Source: a virus. From it: a DNA stretch of 36,111 nucleotides. The stretch spans positions 1 through 36,111 of the IMG/VR virus record IMGVR_UViG_3300008448_000294. The stretch is one strand, 5' to 3'. The notes beneath the pieces were generated by a model. That model was given only the letters and a program-made list of their open reading frames with translations, was not told where the DNA came from and made no database searches. The translations under genes and the position numbers were made by a program. This document shows positions 26,053 to 36,111 of the stretch, piece by piece; within the stretch, counting starts at the first letter, position 1; every line of letters starts with the position of its first letter.

Positions 26053-26116
26053 CAACCAACCAACCAACCAAGTAACCCAACCAACCAACCAAATATTGGA
26101 ACCAACCAACCAAACC
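26051..26116. repeat. AACC tetranucleotide repeat tract
   Basis: Three runs of AACC units (26054-26071, 26079-26092, 26100-26113) separated by short interruptions. On the minus strand this reads GGTT repeats. It directly precedes the -35 box of the leftward promoter, so unit gain or loss would change promoter surroundings. One plus frame reads through it as a Pro/Gln/Asn/Thr string, but that frame has no ribosome site. Confidence 0.85.
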
Positions 26117-26125
26117 GCACGACCG

Positions 26126-26182
26126 GCCATGCCATAGGCTCGGACATGTCACGAGCTTGGCAACGCCATAGCGTAGGTCAAG
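26126..26182 (+). repeat. Left copy of short repeats shared with 30260-30282
   Basis: GCCATGCCATAG (26126-26137) is exactly repeated at 30260-30271. CCATAGCGTAGGTCAAG (26166-26182) matches CCATAGCGTCGGCCAAG (30266-30282) at 15 of 17 bases. The copies bracket the AAA+/VWA operon and the small terminase gene. Confidence 0.6.
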
Positions 26183-26225: not shown

Positions 26226-26240
26226 ATGAACGCCGGGACG
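26226..26240 (+). repeat. 15-mer ATGAACGCCGGGACG, copy 1
   Basis: Exact copies lie at 26226-26240 (non-coding), 27216-27230 (inside the VWA-like gene) and 29208-29222 (upstream of the small terminase gene). All three are in the same orientation. Confidence 0.7.
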
Positions 26241-26293: not shown

Positions 26294-26587
26294 TTAATAT
26301 TCGTCGGGCGTTAGCAGCGTCGTAACGCTCCGGTCCGCTTCGGTGATGGCCCATATGGTCGCGCCGCCGACTAGACGATAAACGCTCATAAGGCGGGACC
26401 CGTGGCGCAGGGCCGCTTCATTGGCCCCCCTATCGTCGGCGCATATGTCCCCCCAATCCCCGAACATATGCCGACAAATCAGCATGTGGGCTAGGTCCCG
26501 GTCCCCGTCCATAGCATCCATTGCGCCGGGCGTTGCTACTACGTCCCCCACGGCGAAAAGCGGGCGGGGCTTGCGTTCTGTTTGCAT
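26294..26587 (-). CDS. Conserved plasmid/phage-type small protein
   Basis: 97 residues. PLFAVGDVVATPGAMDAM (9-26), ICRHMFGDWGDICADDRGAN (about 37-56), a MSVYRL strand and TIWAITEADRSVTTLLTPDEY at the end follow a pattern I know from many unassigned plasmid, integrative-element and phage proteins (VATPGALEAL ... HxxGDWGDL ... WIITEADRSxTTxLxPxEY). Its function is unestablished. The ribosome site AAGGAG overlaps a GANTC sequence (GAGTC, 26597-26593). Third gene of the AAA+/VWA operon, 96 bp after the VWA-like gene. Confidence 0.7.
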   Translation of the reverse strand: MQTERKPRPLFAVGDVVATPGAMDAMDGDRDLAHMLICRHMFGDWGDICADDRGANEAALRHGSRLMSVYRLVGGATIWAITEADRSVTTLLTPDEY

Positions 26588-26636
26588 AGCGTGACTCCTT
26601 GCGTTCGCCCGATATTGGCGGGCGGGGCGGGCTTGC

Positions 26637-26672
26637 GGCCCCCCGTGGGGCCGGCCCTTACTGGACCGGCCC
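26637..26672. other. Two overlapping, mutually exclusive hairpins
   Basis: Stem A GGCCCC/GGGGCC (26637-26652) and stem B of ten positions with one mismatch, GGGCCGGCCC/GGACCGGCCC (26648-26672), share the GGGCC at 26648-26652. They lie between the VWA-like gene and the small gene downstream of it. No T-run is present. The arrangement could set the relative expression or RNA stability of the two genes. Confidence 0.5.
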
Positions 26673-26683
26673 GGCGTGGGGTC

Positions 26684-27541
26684 TCAAGCGGCGGCGCGGG
26701 CTTCTAGCATGGCCAGCGTTTCCGCAATCCATGCTTCGGGGTCCCGTGTGGATAGGTCAGTCGCATAAAGGGCGGGAAGGGCTAACACGTCCCCGACGTG
26801 GGGGAAGGCGGGCCGGATCAAGTCATCTAGGTATTGGCGGGACGCCGTGTGAGACTTGAAGGGCCAGCCCCCGGCGAAGCCGAAGGAACGGGCGAGGCTA
26901 TACAGGGCTTGGCGGGGATAGGCGGGGGAGACAAAGGCGAACGCGGCCCGCGCCAAGTCCAGCGGGGCTGTATCAATCCGCGCGAACATGGCGACTCCGT
27001 TCTTGTCCCCGTCCGCGCCCGTGAACGCGCCCGCCCATAGCTCCACGGGACGGCGCGCCGATAGCACGCGGACAAGGGCCAGAATCGCCGCCCCCCGCCG
27101 TTCTATGTCGCGCGCCTCAATACTGCCGCTTGTGGTCAAATCCACCACAACGGCCAACGGGGCCGCTTCGGACGCAAGGCGCACCCGGCGGCGCATGGAT
27201 TGGGGATTCCCCGCAATGAACGCCGGGACGTTGGGGACCGCGCCCGCCACGTCACGGCGCCATGCTTTCGTCGGGGCGGCGAAGGCGAAACGCTCAAAGC
27301 GGGCTAGCAATGCGTCGGACCGCGCCACATAGGAAAGGTCCCCCGTCCGCATGGTCCGACAAGCGGCGGGAAGGTCCAGCCCGCCATTCCATTTTGAGGC
27401 GCCGCCTTGCTGGACGCCCTTCGCCATGGCCGCGTCGGCCATTTCCGAAAGGGAGTCCGCTAAGACATAGTGAGTCACGGCGTCCCTTCGGCCAATATTA
27501 GCGGCCACAATGTCGGGGACTGGACGATTAAAGAGTCTCAT
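26684..27541 (-). CDS. VWA-like (DUF7192-type) partner of AAA+ ATPase
   Basis: 285 residues. Start at ATG 27541, one base after the ATPase stop, with a G-rich ribosome site (the frame runs to a TTG at 27556). FIAGNPQSMRRRVRL (108-122) and VVVDLTTSGSIEARD (131-145) match phage proteins of the DUF7192 kind. D134, T136 and S138 form a variant of the metal-ion-dependent adhesion site DxSxS of von Willebrand A domains. RGAAILALVRVLSARRPVEL is the next helix-strand. VWA proteins of this sort pair with MoxR-type ATPases, which remodel protein complexes or insert metals. It probably acts as the substrate-binding arm of the ATPase next to it. The substrate is unknown. Confidence 0.7.
   Translation of the reverse strand: MRLFNRPVPDIVAANIGRRDAVTHYVLADSLSEMADAAMAKGVQQGGASKWNGGLDLPAACRTMRTGDLSYVARSDALLARFERFAFAAPTKAWRRDVAGAVPNVPAFIAGNPQSMRRRVRLASEAAPLAVVVDLTTSGSIEARDIERRGAAILALVRVLSARRPVELWAGAFTGADGDKNGVAMFARIDTAPLDLARAAFAFVSPAYPRQALYSLARSFGFAGGWPFKSHTASRQYLDDLIRPAFPHVGDVLALPALYATDLSTRDPEAWIAETLAMLEARAAA
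27216..27230 (+). repeat. 15-mer ATGAACGCCGGGACG, copy 2
   Basis: Exact middle copy of the three 15-mers, lying within the coding region of the VWA-like gene, where its complement encodes NVPAFI. Confidence 0.7.
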
Positions 27542-27542
27542 A

Positions 27543-29021
27543 TTAGCCCCCCACAATGGCGCGCTGATCTGCGGAAAGCGCGGCTAGGTACGTCAATTCG
27601 GCGGCGCGGTCCGCCGTGAAACCGGCGGCGATAAGCGCGGCCCCGTCAATAGAGGCGCGTGGGGAAATGATAACTTTCAAGCCCGCCTCACTCGCCTTGG
27701 CGCGGGCCCGCTGGACGCGCGCGGCCCATGCCGCGTTTCCGCAAAGCGCGGACTCGAGCGTTTCATCATAGGTCCAGTCCAGTTTGACGAAGCGGTCCAG
27801 AAAAGCCCCGTCCAGTTTTGTGCGCCCCACATAATCCGCCGTGGCGCCATGGCCCCACGTATTGGCCCCGGCGATAAGCAAGAAGTCAGCATGACGGGGG
27901 ACGATAGCGTCGGGGAATTGGCAGAATCCGTTTGCAATGGCCGATTGCAGGGCCATGCAAGCCTCATTATCCCATGAGTCCAATTCGTCCAGTTGAAGGA
28001 CTCCGCCATGCTCGAACGCTTGGCGAAACGGCGTGCCATGGTACGCGCCGCCCGCGTCCCGATAGCCTAGAACGTCAAAGCCCGTTTGCTTTGCGCCCAT
28101 GCCATAGAACGGGAGTCCCAATAAATCGGCCAGCGCGTGGCCCGCGTGCGTTTTACCGGACCCGGCGGGACCGGCCAGCCATATGTTGACGGGCTTCCCG
28201 TCCCCCTTGCGGGCGGCGGCGATGCGCACAAGGTCCCCGAATGATTTATGCACAAGCCCCGACGTTTCCCGCACGTTCCCGCTAGTGTCCGCAAGCTGGA
28301 CTTTAAGAGTCCCCGCGCCATGGCCCGCAAGGGCGTCCGCGATTCGGGAGTCCACAAGGGCGGCGATAGCGTCGGCGTTCATAGAATTGGCAAGGGCCGC
28401 TTGAATAGCCGCCGCAATGGCCGTTGCAAGGTCCGCCGCGCCGCTTGTCACGGGCGGGGCTTTCGGGGGCGTCGGGACCGTGGCCGCGCTGGCATTGTCC
28501 GCCGTGGCATTGGCGCGGGCGGAGTTTTCCCGTTCCTTTTCGGCGCGCATGGCGTCGAAATATTCCTTTTCGGCGTTCCCCGTATGGCCGCCCGTCCGAT
28601 TGGAACGGCGGCGGCGGAAAGAGGATTCCCCCGTTTCCGCTTCCCGACAAATGGACTCAACCGTGGCAAATTGGCGCGCCGTCATGTTCCCCGCTTGTTT
28701 CGCGCTGGACGTGGCAAAAATGGATTCGGCCAATTCACGGGGGCGAGCGTCCATTTTATGCGCCGCATTATTGAAGCGGACCCGCAATTGAAGAGCGGCG
28801 AAGGAGTCATGCGGCCACGTTGCGCCGTTGGCATAGTCCGCCGCCATGCGTTCAACGTCTATGCCAAGGGCGCGCGCCGCTTCGGCCATTGTTTCAATCC
28901 GTAAATCGGCGGCGGTTATGCCGCGCTCTTTCCGGTACGAGTCCCATTGAGGATGGCTCGTAAGAGCGGACCGGAGCGCGGACCGGGCCAAGGCGGACAA
29001 GCGGGGAAGAGTCATTGTCAT
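27543..29021 (-). CDS. MoxR/CobS-like AAA+ ATPase
   Basis: 492 residues from ATG 29021, chosen for AGGA eight bases upstream; the open frame continues to 29108. Residues 1 to about 230 are helical and end in an Ala/Thr/Pro linker. The AAA+ core has Walker A GPAGSGKTH (about 281-289), Walker B VLQLDELDSW (about 342-351), a sensor segment IAGANTWG (about 381-388) and GAFLDRFV with a probable arginine finger (about 405-412). The pattern is of the AAA_5/MoxR group, which includes CobS-like phage proteins. Such ATPases make rings that act with VWA partners. One base separates its stop from the VWA-like ATG, so the two are made together. A remodelling or metal-chelatase-like role is inferred; neither is shown. 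Confidence 0.8.
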   Translation of the reverse strand: MTMTLPRLSALARSALRSALTSHPQWDSYRKERGITAADLRIETMAEAARALGIDVERMAADYANGATWPHDSFAALQLRVRFNNAAHKMDARPRELAESIFATSSAKQAGNMTARQFATVESICREAETGESSFRRRRSNRTGGHTGNAEKEYFDAMRAEKERENSARANATADNASAATVPTPPKAPPVTSGAADLATAIAAAIQAALANSMNADAIAALVDSRIADALAGHGAGTLKVQLADTSGNVRETSGLVHKSFGDLVRIAAARKGDGKPVNIWLAGPAGSGKTHAGHALADLLGLPFYGMGAKQTGFDVLGYRDAGGAYHGTPFRQAFEHGGVLQLDELDSWDNEACMALQSAIANGFCQFPDAIVPRHADFLLIAGANTWGHGATADYVGRTKLDGAFLDRFVKLDWTYDETLESALCGNAAWAARVQRARAKASEAGLKVIISPRASIDGAALIAAGFTADRAAELTYLAALSADQRAIVGG

Positions 29022-29270
29022 TGCTTTATTCCTATCTTTGGCGTGACAGTAAAACGCGCATAGCGGGCGCGCCTGATTCCCATAGCACGAAATGGCATGG
29101 CATGGCAAATGTGCCAGCGGAAAGCCGTTCGCCTTGTGTTATCATGGGCTTGCGTTGGAAAGGCGGGCCGCGTGGCAATCCCTTTTCGGGCGTTTCTTGG
29201 CGGGGATATGAACGCCGGGACGCAAGGGGCCAAGGCGCGCTTGGCATGGACTAGCAGGGGGGCGTGACAA
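29022..29270. other. Divergent intergenic region before terS
   Basis: About 250 bp between the ATPase gene and the small terminase gene. It contains the tandem pentamer (ATGGC)3 at 29092-29106, a GANTC site (GATTC) at 29075-29079, and copy 3 of the 15-mer. No confident promoter pair was found, although the region must start transcripts in both directions. Confidence 0.4.
29208..29222 (+). repeat. 15-mer ATGAACGCCGGGACG, copy 3
   Basis: Exact third copy, about 50 bp before the small terminase ATG. A site for a regulator or for terminase recognition is possible. Confidence 0.7.
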
Positions 29271-33496: not shown

Positions 33497-35764
33497 ATGC
33501 CGCTTACGCCCGGTCTTGTGCCCAACATCCGTCAGGCTTCTCCTGAAGATGATCCGTTGCCCGGCCCGACCGACGTAGTGGTTGAGTATGAAGACAGCGT
33601 GGGCGAAGACCGCCCGGAAACCGACATAGACGGCAATGTTCTGAAAATTGAACATGCTGACGGTTCTATCTCTGTCTCTCTGGATGGAAAGCCGATTGAA
33701 AGCGCACGCAGCCGTGAGCGCGGCGGCTGGTTTGACAATCTGGTTGATGACATTGACAACGCAGAGCTGTCTCGCATCTCCAGTGAGTTGCTCAAGGGCA
33801 TAGACGACGACATTGATAGCCGCAAAGAGTGGATTGAAGATCGCGCGCAGGGCATCAAGCTCCTTGGCCTGAAGATTGAAATCCCCGGCCTCGCTGGCGC
33901 GGCTGACGGCGCTCCAGTTGAGGGGATGTCAAAAGTCCGACACCCGCTTCTGCTTGAAGCTGTGTTGCGATTTCAAGCCAACGCGCGATCAGAGCTTCTT
34001 CCCACCGACGGGCCGGTGAAGATCAGGAATGATTCCACCCGCGCCACGTTGCAGCAAGATCAAATGGCGAACGCGCTCCAGCGCGACCTCAATCACTATC
34101 TGACCAGCATTGCCACTGAGTATTATCCTGACACCGACCGCATGTTGCTCATGCTTGGTTTCGGTGGGTCTTCTTTTAAGAAGATTTACTTCTGCCCGCT
34201 GCGCAATCGCCCGGTGTCTGAGAGCGTTGATGCTGACGATTTGATCGTCAACAATTCTGCGACTGATCTGCGTAACGCCAAGCGCATTACGCATCGCGTG
34301 TACATGCGGCCCTCGACTGTGAAGCGTTTGCAGATTTTGGGTGTGTATCGCGATGTTGATCTGTCAACGCCCAAGCCGGCCCAGTTAGACAGCGTGCAGC
34401 GCGAACAGATGAGCCAGCAAGGGCTGTCGCCATCTGTGACAAACCCTGATGATCGCGACCGCGAAATCTACGAGTGCTATTGCGAACTCGACATTCGCGG
34501 CTTTGAACACAAGTACAAGGGCAAAGAGACGGGCCTTGAGATTCCGTATCGTGTCACGATTGACGCTTCTACAAAGGAAATTCTGAGCATCGTCCGCAAT
34601 TACGACGAGGACGATCAGGACTTGCCGACCGCCCGGCAGAACTTCGTCAAGTACACTTTTGTGCCGGGGATGGGCTTCTATGACATCGGCCTTCTTCACA
34701 TACTGGGCAATACGACTAACGCTATCACTGCTGCGTGGCGTGAGCTACTTGACGCTGGCATGTACAACAATTTTCCCGGCTTCCTTATGGCGGACACGGG
34801 CGCACGCCAGAATACGAATATCTTCCGCGTTCCTCCGGGGGGAGGCGCGACTGTTAAAACAAATGGCATGCCTATCTCGCAGGCCGTAATGCCACTGCCA
34901 TACAAAGAGCCTTCTGGCGCTTTGATGAACCTTGTCACGCAAATGGCTGACACGGGCATGCGCGTGGGCGGCACGTCTGAAGTCATGGTGACGGAAGGCA
35001 AGCCCGACGCGCCCGTTGGCACTACGCTTGCCATGATTGAGCAAGCGCAGAAGGTCGTGAACTCCGTCCATAAGCGGATGCACGCCGCACAGTGCGAAGA
35101 GTTTGCCCTTCTGGCGAGGGAGTTCAAGGAACATCCTGAGAGCTTCTGGCAGAAGAACCGTCGTCCCGCCTATCCGTGGGATGAGCGGACCTTCATGATG
35201 GCTCTTGAAGACTGCGATCTCGTCCCGCAGGCCGACCCCAACACGTCAAGCCAGTCGCAGCGCCTGATGAAGATCATGGCGCTCAAGCAGCTTCAGCAAG
35301 CAAGCCCGTCTCTCTATGACCCGATTGCGGTTGACGTTGCGGCGTTGCAGGCGATTGGCTGGAACAACCCCGAACAGTTCATGGTGCCGTCCTCCGCGCA
35401 GGATAAGCCGCCGCCGGAACTCATGAAGGCCATGGCCGACATGGAGAATGACAAGCGCAACTCCGAAGCGCGCATGCTCGACAGCCAGACCCGCGCCAAA
35501 GAAACGGACGCGAAGATTGGCATGGATCAGCAGCGCGGTCAGCTTGAGATCATGCGTATGCAGAAAGAGCTTGGCGGGGATGAGGACAAGATGGCGGAAA
35601 TGCACAATGACCGCCAGAACCGCCTGAGCCAAGAGCGCACGCAGTTGATTGACTTGGCGCAGGACGTTCTCCAGCATCCTGAAAACGTCGGGCTAATTGA
35701 ACCGCTTATCCGTCCGGCCCTTGAGGAAGTTGAGTCGGATCGCCAACAGAAAGGGCTGATGTGA
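33497..35764 (+). CDS. Portal protein (P22/SU10-type podovirus)
   Basis: 755 residues. After an acidic variable N-terminus, residues about 180-290 (LNHYLTSIATEYYPDTDRML, FGGSSFKKIYFCPLRNRP, NAKRITHRVYM) are the clip/wing core seen in large podovirus portals. Further on are FYDIGLLHILGNTTNAITAAWREL (about 393-416) and DTGMRVGGTSEVMV, common in this family. The C-terminal 150 residues are a Gln/Met-rich helical barrel with long charged helices (NSEARMLDSQTRAKETD, LEIMRMQKELGG). Twelve copies form the ring through which DNA enters. Its stop shares bases with the next ATG (TGATG). Confidence 0.85.
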   Translation: MPLTPGLVPNIRQASPEDDPLPGPTDVVVEYEDSVGEDRPETDIDGNVLKIEHADGSISVSLDGKPIESARSRERGGWFDNLVDDIDNAELSRISSELLKGIDDDIDSRKEWIEDRAQGIKLLGLKIEIPGLAGAADGAPVEGMSKVRHPLLLEAVLRFQANARSELLPTDGPVKIRNDSTRATLQQDQMANALQRDLNHYLTSIATEYYPDTDRMLLMLGFGGSSFKKIYFCPLRNRPVSESVDADDLIVNNSATDLRNAKRITHRVYMRPSTVKRLQILGVYRDVDLSTPKPAQLDSVQREQMSQQGLSPSVTNPDDRDREIYECYCELDIRGFEHKYKGKETGLEIPYRVTIDASTKEILSIVRNYDEDDQDLPTARQNFVKYTFVPGMGFYDIGLLHILGNTTNAITAAWRELLDAGMYNNFPGFLMADTGARQNTNIFRVPPGGGATVKTNGMPISQAVMPLPYKEPSGALMNLVTQMADTGMRVGGTSEVMVTEGKPDAPVGTTLAMIEQAQKVVNSVHKRMHAAQCEEFALLAREFKEHPESFWQKNRRPAYPWDERTFMMALEDCDLVPQADPNTSSQSQRLMKIMALKQLQQASPSLYDPIAVDVAALQAIGWNNPEQFMVPSSAQDKPPPELMKAMADMENDKRNSEARMLDSQTRAKETDAKIGMDQQRGQLEIMRMQKELGGDEDKMAEMHNDRQNRLSQERTQLIDLAQDVLQHPENVGLIEPLIRPALEEVESDRQQKGLM

Positions 35765-36111
35765 TGAACCCCGTTTTGATGCAACTTGTTCAACGGTTTG
35801 GCCCTAGCGTTCTAAGCATGGGCGAGAAAGCTCAAGCTACCTTGGCCCGCATGGCTGGCCTCCAGACCCCTGCGGCACAGCAGGCTTCTAGCCGTCTTAT
35901 GGAGCCCGGCACCGCTGAACGCGCCATGTCCGCGATTCGCGCCTCTGGCCCCGGCGGCACGAACCCCATGCTGACCGCTGGCGCTACCGCTGGCACGGCC
36001 TTGGGCGCTGGCATGATGCCAACCACAAATGGCGGCGCTCAAATGCCACCGGATCGTGAAGCTCTGTTCTCCCAGCTTAACCGCGATCCTGACAGCATGG
36101 CCCGTATGGCT
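35764..36111 (+). CDS. Post-portal structural protein (3' partial)
   Basis: The frame begins at ATG 35764 within the portal stop and is open to the window end (116 codons). The visible product (MNPVLMQLVQRFGPSVLSMG, then LARMAGLQTPAAQQASSRLM ... ) is Ala/Met/Gly-rich with low charge and a GATAGTALGAGMM stretch. Its position after the portal, before the missing capsid genes, and its helical composition suggest a scaffold-like or minor structural protein. Not recognised. Confidence 0.6.
   Translation, partial: MNPVLMQLVQRFGPSVLSMGEKAQATLARMAGLQTPAAQQASSRLMEPGTAERAMSAIRASGPGGTNPMLTAGATAGTALGAGMMPTTNGGAQMPPDREALFSQLNRDPDSMARMA

Follow-up and report, generated by a model that had tools for sequence, protein, structure and literature searches.

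A widespread phage gene pair of a MoxR-type ATPase and a probable, divergent vWA-like adaptor

In NorQ-NorD, a MoxR-vWA pair to which the locus treated here can be compared, the vWA protein NorD carries a finger (residues 403–448) with a helix at its tip; this finger stands just ahead of the vWA core and enters the NorQ pore, and the helix-2 insert hairpin of NorQ touches it (PMC13036017). The MIDAS of NorD is required for the target and not for binding to NorQ (PMC9976466), and in cellular conflict systems certain vWA proteins that partner MoxR ATPases do without the MIDAS aspartates (PMC7159879). We analysed virus record IMGVR_UViG_3300008448_000294 over its whole length of 36,111 bases (the window), in which an earlier note, made from the letters alone, had described an operon for a MoxR-like ATPase, a VWA-like protein and a small protein as an uncharacterised phage system. 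That description stands as far as function goes, but the families were already catalogued and viral MoxR-vWA or cobST pairs are published (PMC8651126, PMC7824862). The locus contains a real and widespread pair, a MoxR-type ATPase and a probable vWA-like adaptor of divergent sequence, of a kind already reported from viruses.

The ORF list and translations agree with the note on the gene coordinates, on the single base that separates the ATPase stop codon from the DUF7192 start codon on the same strand, and on an orientation opposite to the packaging genes (Table 1). Compared with a close relative (L021), pN/pS is 0.15 for the ATPase, 0.15 for the DUF7192 gene and 0.22 for the small-protein gene, which indicates purifying selection on all three and thus that the genes are real. 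The three-gene island has a GC content of 0.64 versus 0.56 for the whole window. An exact 15-mer, CGTCCCGGCGTTCAT, occurs three times on the minus strand (26226–26240, 27216–27230 and 29208–29222), once on each flank of the operon and once within the codons of the candidate DUF7192 finger; two of the copies are present in L021 as well, and the triplicate is possibly a recombination seam. Just 3′ of the operon, at 26054–26129, AACC (minus strand: TTGG) is repeated in a run. A scan for sigma-70 promoters and terminators gave a signal not clearly over that of shuffled sequences. The record is classed as linear, a class that often denotes a fragment; a portal-like ORF lies near one of its ends and a tail-adaptor-like ORF near the other, and since ORF reading recognised no major capsid gene between them (33497–36111 and 1–577), the record is probably incomplete.

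Table 1. Features of the locus and of related loci; positions are those of the window unless a locus is named.
Feature	Position	Strand	Remarks
ATPase gene	27543..29021	-	492 aa; ATG at 29021, stop 27543–27545
ATPase N-terminal region, residues 1–240	28302..29021	-	variable, mostly helical; candidate target-binding part
Walker A, residues 284–291, GPAGSGKT	28149..28172	-	conservation in 24 relatives
Helix-2 insert hairpin, residues 319–329	28035..28067	-	MoxR-clade feature; AF2 model
Walker B, residues 341–346	27984..28001	-	conservation in 24 relatives
DUF7192/phrog_1909 gene, putative vWA-like adaptor	26684..27541	-	285 aa; ATG at 27541; Pfam and PHROGs matches, model, profile-profile comparison
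Candidate finger, residues 92–121, strand-helix-strand	27179..27268	-	VxGxxx[ND][VI]xxxxxGxPxxM; conservation and DSSP
MIDAS-like DLTTS, residues 134–138, end of beta-1	27128..27142	-	not conserved in family
Small-protein gene	26294..26587	-	97 aa; occasional third gene
Terminase small subunit, Sf6-type	starts 29271	opposite to operon	
TerL	starts 31568	opposite to operon	
Methyltransferase-linked relatives of the small protein	L060 2798–4270; L062 3626–5062		

The ATPase matches AAA (4.9e-5) and AAA_5 (6.5e-5) in Pfam and phrog_249 (E 9e-47) in PHROGs. Its catalytic motifs are all intact: Walker A (G284 to K290), D345-E346 of Walker B, the sensor-1 residue N387, the arginine finger R410 and the sensor-2 residue R455 are invariant or nearly so among 24 relatives. 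Together with the helix-2 insert and the pre-sensor-1 hairpin, which appear in the AF2 model as short strand pairs (320–321/327–328 and 366–368/373–375), these motifs place the protein in the MoxR clade (pre-sensor-2-insert superclade). Against solved structures its profile matched the Midasin AAA modules best (1e-37), then CobS (2e-16) and CbbQ (5e-9); the model is confident over the AAA+ part and has NorQ (E 2e-12) and CbbQ as its top Foldseek matches. The note's call of a MoxR-like ATPase is therefore upheld. The PHROG label of phrog_249 is ‘porphyrin biosynthesis’, and because neither NCBIfam nor Pfam gave a match to a CobS or CobT model, this porphyrin or cobalamin label looks wrong. A search for CobN that covered this virus fragment found none. 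The N-terminal stretch of about 230 residues that the note had left unassigned is indeed without assignment. Residues 1 to about 240 are mostly helical with low-confidence linkers in the model and vary among relatives, and relatives in actino- and acidobacterial phages and genomes have Cys-pair, zinc-ribbon-like N-termini instead. This variable region is plausibly the targeting part. The ATPase gene of phage K appears to be split between gp219 and gp220 (L019 2682–3801), and that of phage P108 is one ORF of 372 aa.

The second gene belongs to DUF7192 (PF23822; 2e-15, 57.3 bits versus a cut-off of 27) and also matches phrog_1909 (3.5e-31); a literature search on the name ‘DUF7192’ found no paper. 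The AF2 model, built with 24 sequences (pLDDT 83.9, pTM 0.80), has a Rossmann-like core past residue 129, in which DSSP gives the order strand 129–134, helix 143–163, strands 166–174 and 182–189, helices, and strand 251–255. A Rossmannoid vWA core, on which the note's VWA proposal hung, is thus present in the model, with modest match scores. In Foldseek, vWA proteins head the lists at low TM: the vWA domain of NorD comes first (E 3e-3, probability 0.90, but TM 0.25 and rmsd 9.9 Å), and the PDB yielded no match at E ≤ 1e-3. Among viral models, other DUF7192 proteins lead, followed mainly by phage vWA/CobT proteins (5e-6 onward). A DUF7192 profile scored 24.9 against a profile of actinophage CobT-like vWA proteins, compared with at most 20.5 in 150 column shuffles and 15.7 for the reversed profile, and the alignment spans the finger segment and beta-1; because hhalign itself gives this pair of profiles a low probability (3.8%, P 0.011), we take the score as support and not as proof. 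That was the sole profile to align: hhalign gave no signal for DUF7192 with single CobT proteins or with a cyanophage CobT profile. A search of PDB sequences with the DUF7192 profile returned only a glucanase stretch (3e-4) and a designed miniprotein, both judged to be chance. On the strength of the model and its modest match scores, the DUF7192 protein is probably a divergent vWA-fold adaptor. The DUF7192 protein of Rhizobium phage P106B (L015 3647–4825) has about 100 additional N-terminal residues with a sub-threshold DUF5710 match, possibly a targeting domain.

The D134-x-T136-x-S138 to which the note had drawn attention as MIDAS-like is present, but it is useless as vWA evidence: DxTxS is kept only in close relatives, with N, H, P, E, Q and others found elsewhere in the family, and the later T/D pair of the MIDAS pattern (DxSxS...T...D) was not seen in DUF7192. 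MIDAS as proof of a vWA was dropped for this restriction to close relatives, and since the classical residues are not kept, one cannot take it that DUF7192 binds a target in the way known vWA partners do. The most conserved stretches of the family include residues 91–120 and 196–210, with G100 in 32/32 sequences, G111 and P113 in 30/32 and M116 in 27/32. In the AF2 model the candidate finger, residues 92–121, stands directly ahead of beta-1. Since the NorD finger couples to NorQ and the NorD MIDAS serves the target, a kept finger and a lost MIDAS make a coherent pattern; by this analogy DUF7192 may have retained ring coupling and altered its target contact.

To assess the pairing, the ATPase was used to collect two sets of loci with partly shared contigs. 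In the first set DUF7192 lies directly 3′ of the ATPase on the same strand in 34 of 36 viral loci, and the remaining two (L042, L054) are cut by the contig end, giving 34/34. In the second (80 viral and five genome loci) the genes are adjacent within 600 bp in 80 of 85, 764 bp apart in one and cut in four, giving 81/81. With this near-absolute co-occurrence wherever there is enough sequence, and a vWA-like fold suggested by model and profile, the pairing proposed in the note holds, and neither of the two outcomes that the note named as refuting it came about. The two proteins have correlated distance matrices (r = 0.85; maximum 0.10 in 1000 permutations), a result to which linkage alone contributes. 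More distant ATPases pair with a CobT-like vWA protein instead (Gordonia phages Chidiebere and GMA6, Brevibacterium phage Cantare, Synechococcus phage S-CREM1).

The pair occurs in phages of Sinorhizobium, Rhizobium, Acinetobacter, Alteromonas, Mycobacterium, Gordonia, Tunturiibacter, Staphylococcus and Listeria, the last two being hosts that to our knowledge lack CobN, and under TAG readthrough in a crAss-like phage. The annotated phages have hosts in Pseudomonadota, Bacillota, Actinomycetota and Acidobacteriota, and the crAss-like phage presumably has one in Bacteroidota; the pair is phage-enriched, and the hosts of the phages that carry it come from at least five bacterial phyla. Two pattern scans of 84,980 prokaryote genomes found none and five loci, respectively, and three of these (L150, L153, L154) contain what we take, from reading the sequence, to be phage-terminase-like ORFs. 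Amycolatopsis and Actinocrispum genomes (L151–L154) carry the pair, Actinocrispum in two copies; by the same reading these copies adjoin presumed phage-terminase-like ORFs, and L151 adjoins ORFs that we take to be methylase- and Vsr-like. The TerL of the window was not found in phiM5 or P106B, both of which have the pair, so the pair travels independently of the packaging genes.

The small protein had been described as conserved, and it was indeed found in 175 plasmid records and, for the smaller part of the related phage loci, 3′ of the pair. It has no match in Pfam, PHROGs or NCBIfam; in the PDB, multi-copy ubiquitin matches without a single passing stretch were judged to be chance. On a Stutzerimonas plasmid a DUF6094 methyltransferase has a relative of the small protein as its C-terminal part, and on a Herbaspirillum plasmid the gene adjoins an N6_Mtase gene. 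Some copies bear the PLSDB name ‘type I restriction endonuclease subunit M’. The note's three-gene set did not survive as a conserved unit and was dropped: across loci the small protein accompanies the pair now and again and is not a core partner.

Timing is available from phage K, a single phage that is distant from the present one and whose ATPase gene is apparently split: gp220 (the ATPase) and gp221 (DUF7192) fall in cluster C2, which peaks 2–5 min post infection, C4 being the morphogenesis cluster (PMC11598898). The pair stands at the genome end in phiM5, Faith1 and Kudefre, and near replication genes in the crAss-like phage (Sak4/primase) and Tunturi_4 (clamp). P106B-type phages (Rigallicvirus) have it amid virion genes, but on the other strand. 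The phage K timing, the genome-end positions and the replication-gene neighbours favour an early role, and the note's suggestion that the pair modifies a host complex or counters a defence would fit the early expression. Going by its clade, the ATPase would form a hexameric ring whose pore may receive residues 92–121 of DUF7192, and ATP hydrolysis would then twist the adaptor against a bound target, met probably by the variable ATPase N-terminus and, on the adaptor, by surfaces that are not a classical MIDAS. Such a machine would act early, most likely on a host complex in host takeover or counter-defence, and would work like NorQ-NorD, CbbQ-CbbO or RavA-ViaA rather than as a cobalt chelatase. 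On balance we think it probable that the pair is an early ATP-driven remodelling machine, a vWA-fold adaptor fingered into a MoxR ring, with a likely host target. More tentatively, it may represent a phage-specific MoxR-vWA branch in at least five phyla that lost the metal-dependent target site, kept the finger and became an early remodeller for host takeover or counter-defence.

A narrower reading, in which the ring is a dedicated counter-defence device that takes apart or disables a single class of host defence complex, appears unlikely: early expression in phage K (PMC11598898), the phage-enriched, GC-rich cassette and the occasional third gene, whose plasmid relatives adjoin or fuse with DNA methyltransferases, speak for it, but the methyltransferase link amounts to two cases, no defence target is indicated, a PADLOC scan gave nothing meaningful, and the same evidence suits any host target. 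We regard it as rather unlikely that ring and adaptor are a virion-assembly chaperone that folds or assembles head or tail proteins. Jumbo phages of group 2.2 have MoxR-vWA pairs for which such a role was proposed (PMC7824862), ATV p618/p892 are reported to have it, and the Rigallicvirus copies amid virion genes suit it, but the phage K genes are in the 2–5 min and not the morphogenesis cluster (PMC11598898), the pair frequently lies beside replication genes or at a genome end, and the phiM5 record, which flags particle-detected proteins, has no flag on the ATPase or DUF7192. In a last reading the two proteins are cobaltochelatase subunits of the CobST type, which would take over host CobN and so raise cobalamin output. 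The PHROG label, the similarity of the ATPase sequence to CobS in the PDB and what has been proposed for tailed viruses of archaea and bacteria (PMC8651126) speak for it, but it is very improbable given the lack of CobS or CobT model matches, a DUF7192 without CobT's classical MIDAS, the Staphylococcus and Listeria phages that carry the pair, and the R22Y host, reported to be without CobS itself (PMC11705849).

The pair is present in much-used phages, namely phage K, other Kayviruses and Listeria A511/P100, whose annotations often put the ATPase under ‘porphyrin biosynthesis’ and leave the partner nameless. If the pair is an early remodelling machine, then phages would have a general tool in this vWA-type remodeller, with its fixed pairing and its expression early in infection, and a cobalamin annotation that recurs in auxiliary-metabolic-gene studies would be corrected.

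Among known systems, McrB-McrC has a finger-in-pore contact, made without a vWA domain (PMC13036017); McrC, however, is part of an endonuclease complex, and no nuclease was seen beside the phage pair. The MoxR-vWA ternary conflict systems (eLife 2020, PMC7159879) share the MoxR-vWA core, a third component and some vWA proteins without MIDAS aspartates, but they are cellular and have effectors, whereas the third phage gene is not a core partner. RavA-ViaA and CbbQ-CbbO are two-component MoxR and vWA remodellers, though cellular, with known targets and a classical MIDAS. The cobST pairs of phages and archaeal viruses resemble the phage pair in that, in tailed viruses, a MoxR-clade ATPase adjoins a vWA protein (PMC8651126), and viral CobS-CobT has a comparable finger and beta-1 segment; the CobT-like partners, however, have 600–700 aa and DxSxS, while DUF7192 has about 285 aa and no DxSxS. 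NorD of Paracoccus denitrificans differs from DUF7192 in its classical MIDAS and large N-terminal target-binding domain, and the phage pair differs in its degenerate MIDAS, in the extra N-terminal region on the ATPase and in that no nitric oxide reductase is indicated. Yet NorQ-NorD is the best structural match for each phage protein separately, and the NorD finger and the finger-like segment of DUF7192 both lie immediately ahead of the vWA core.
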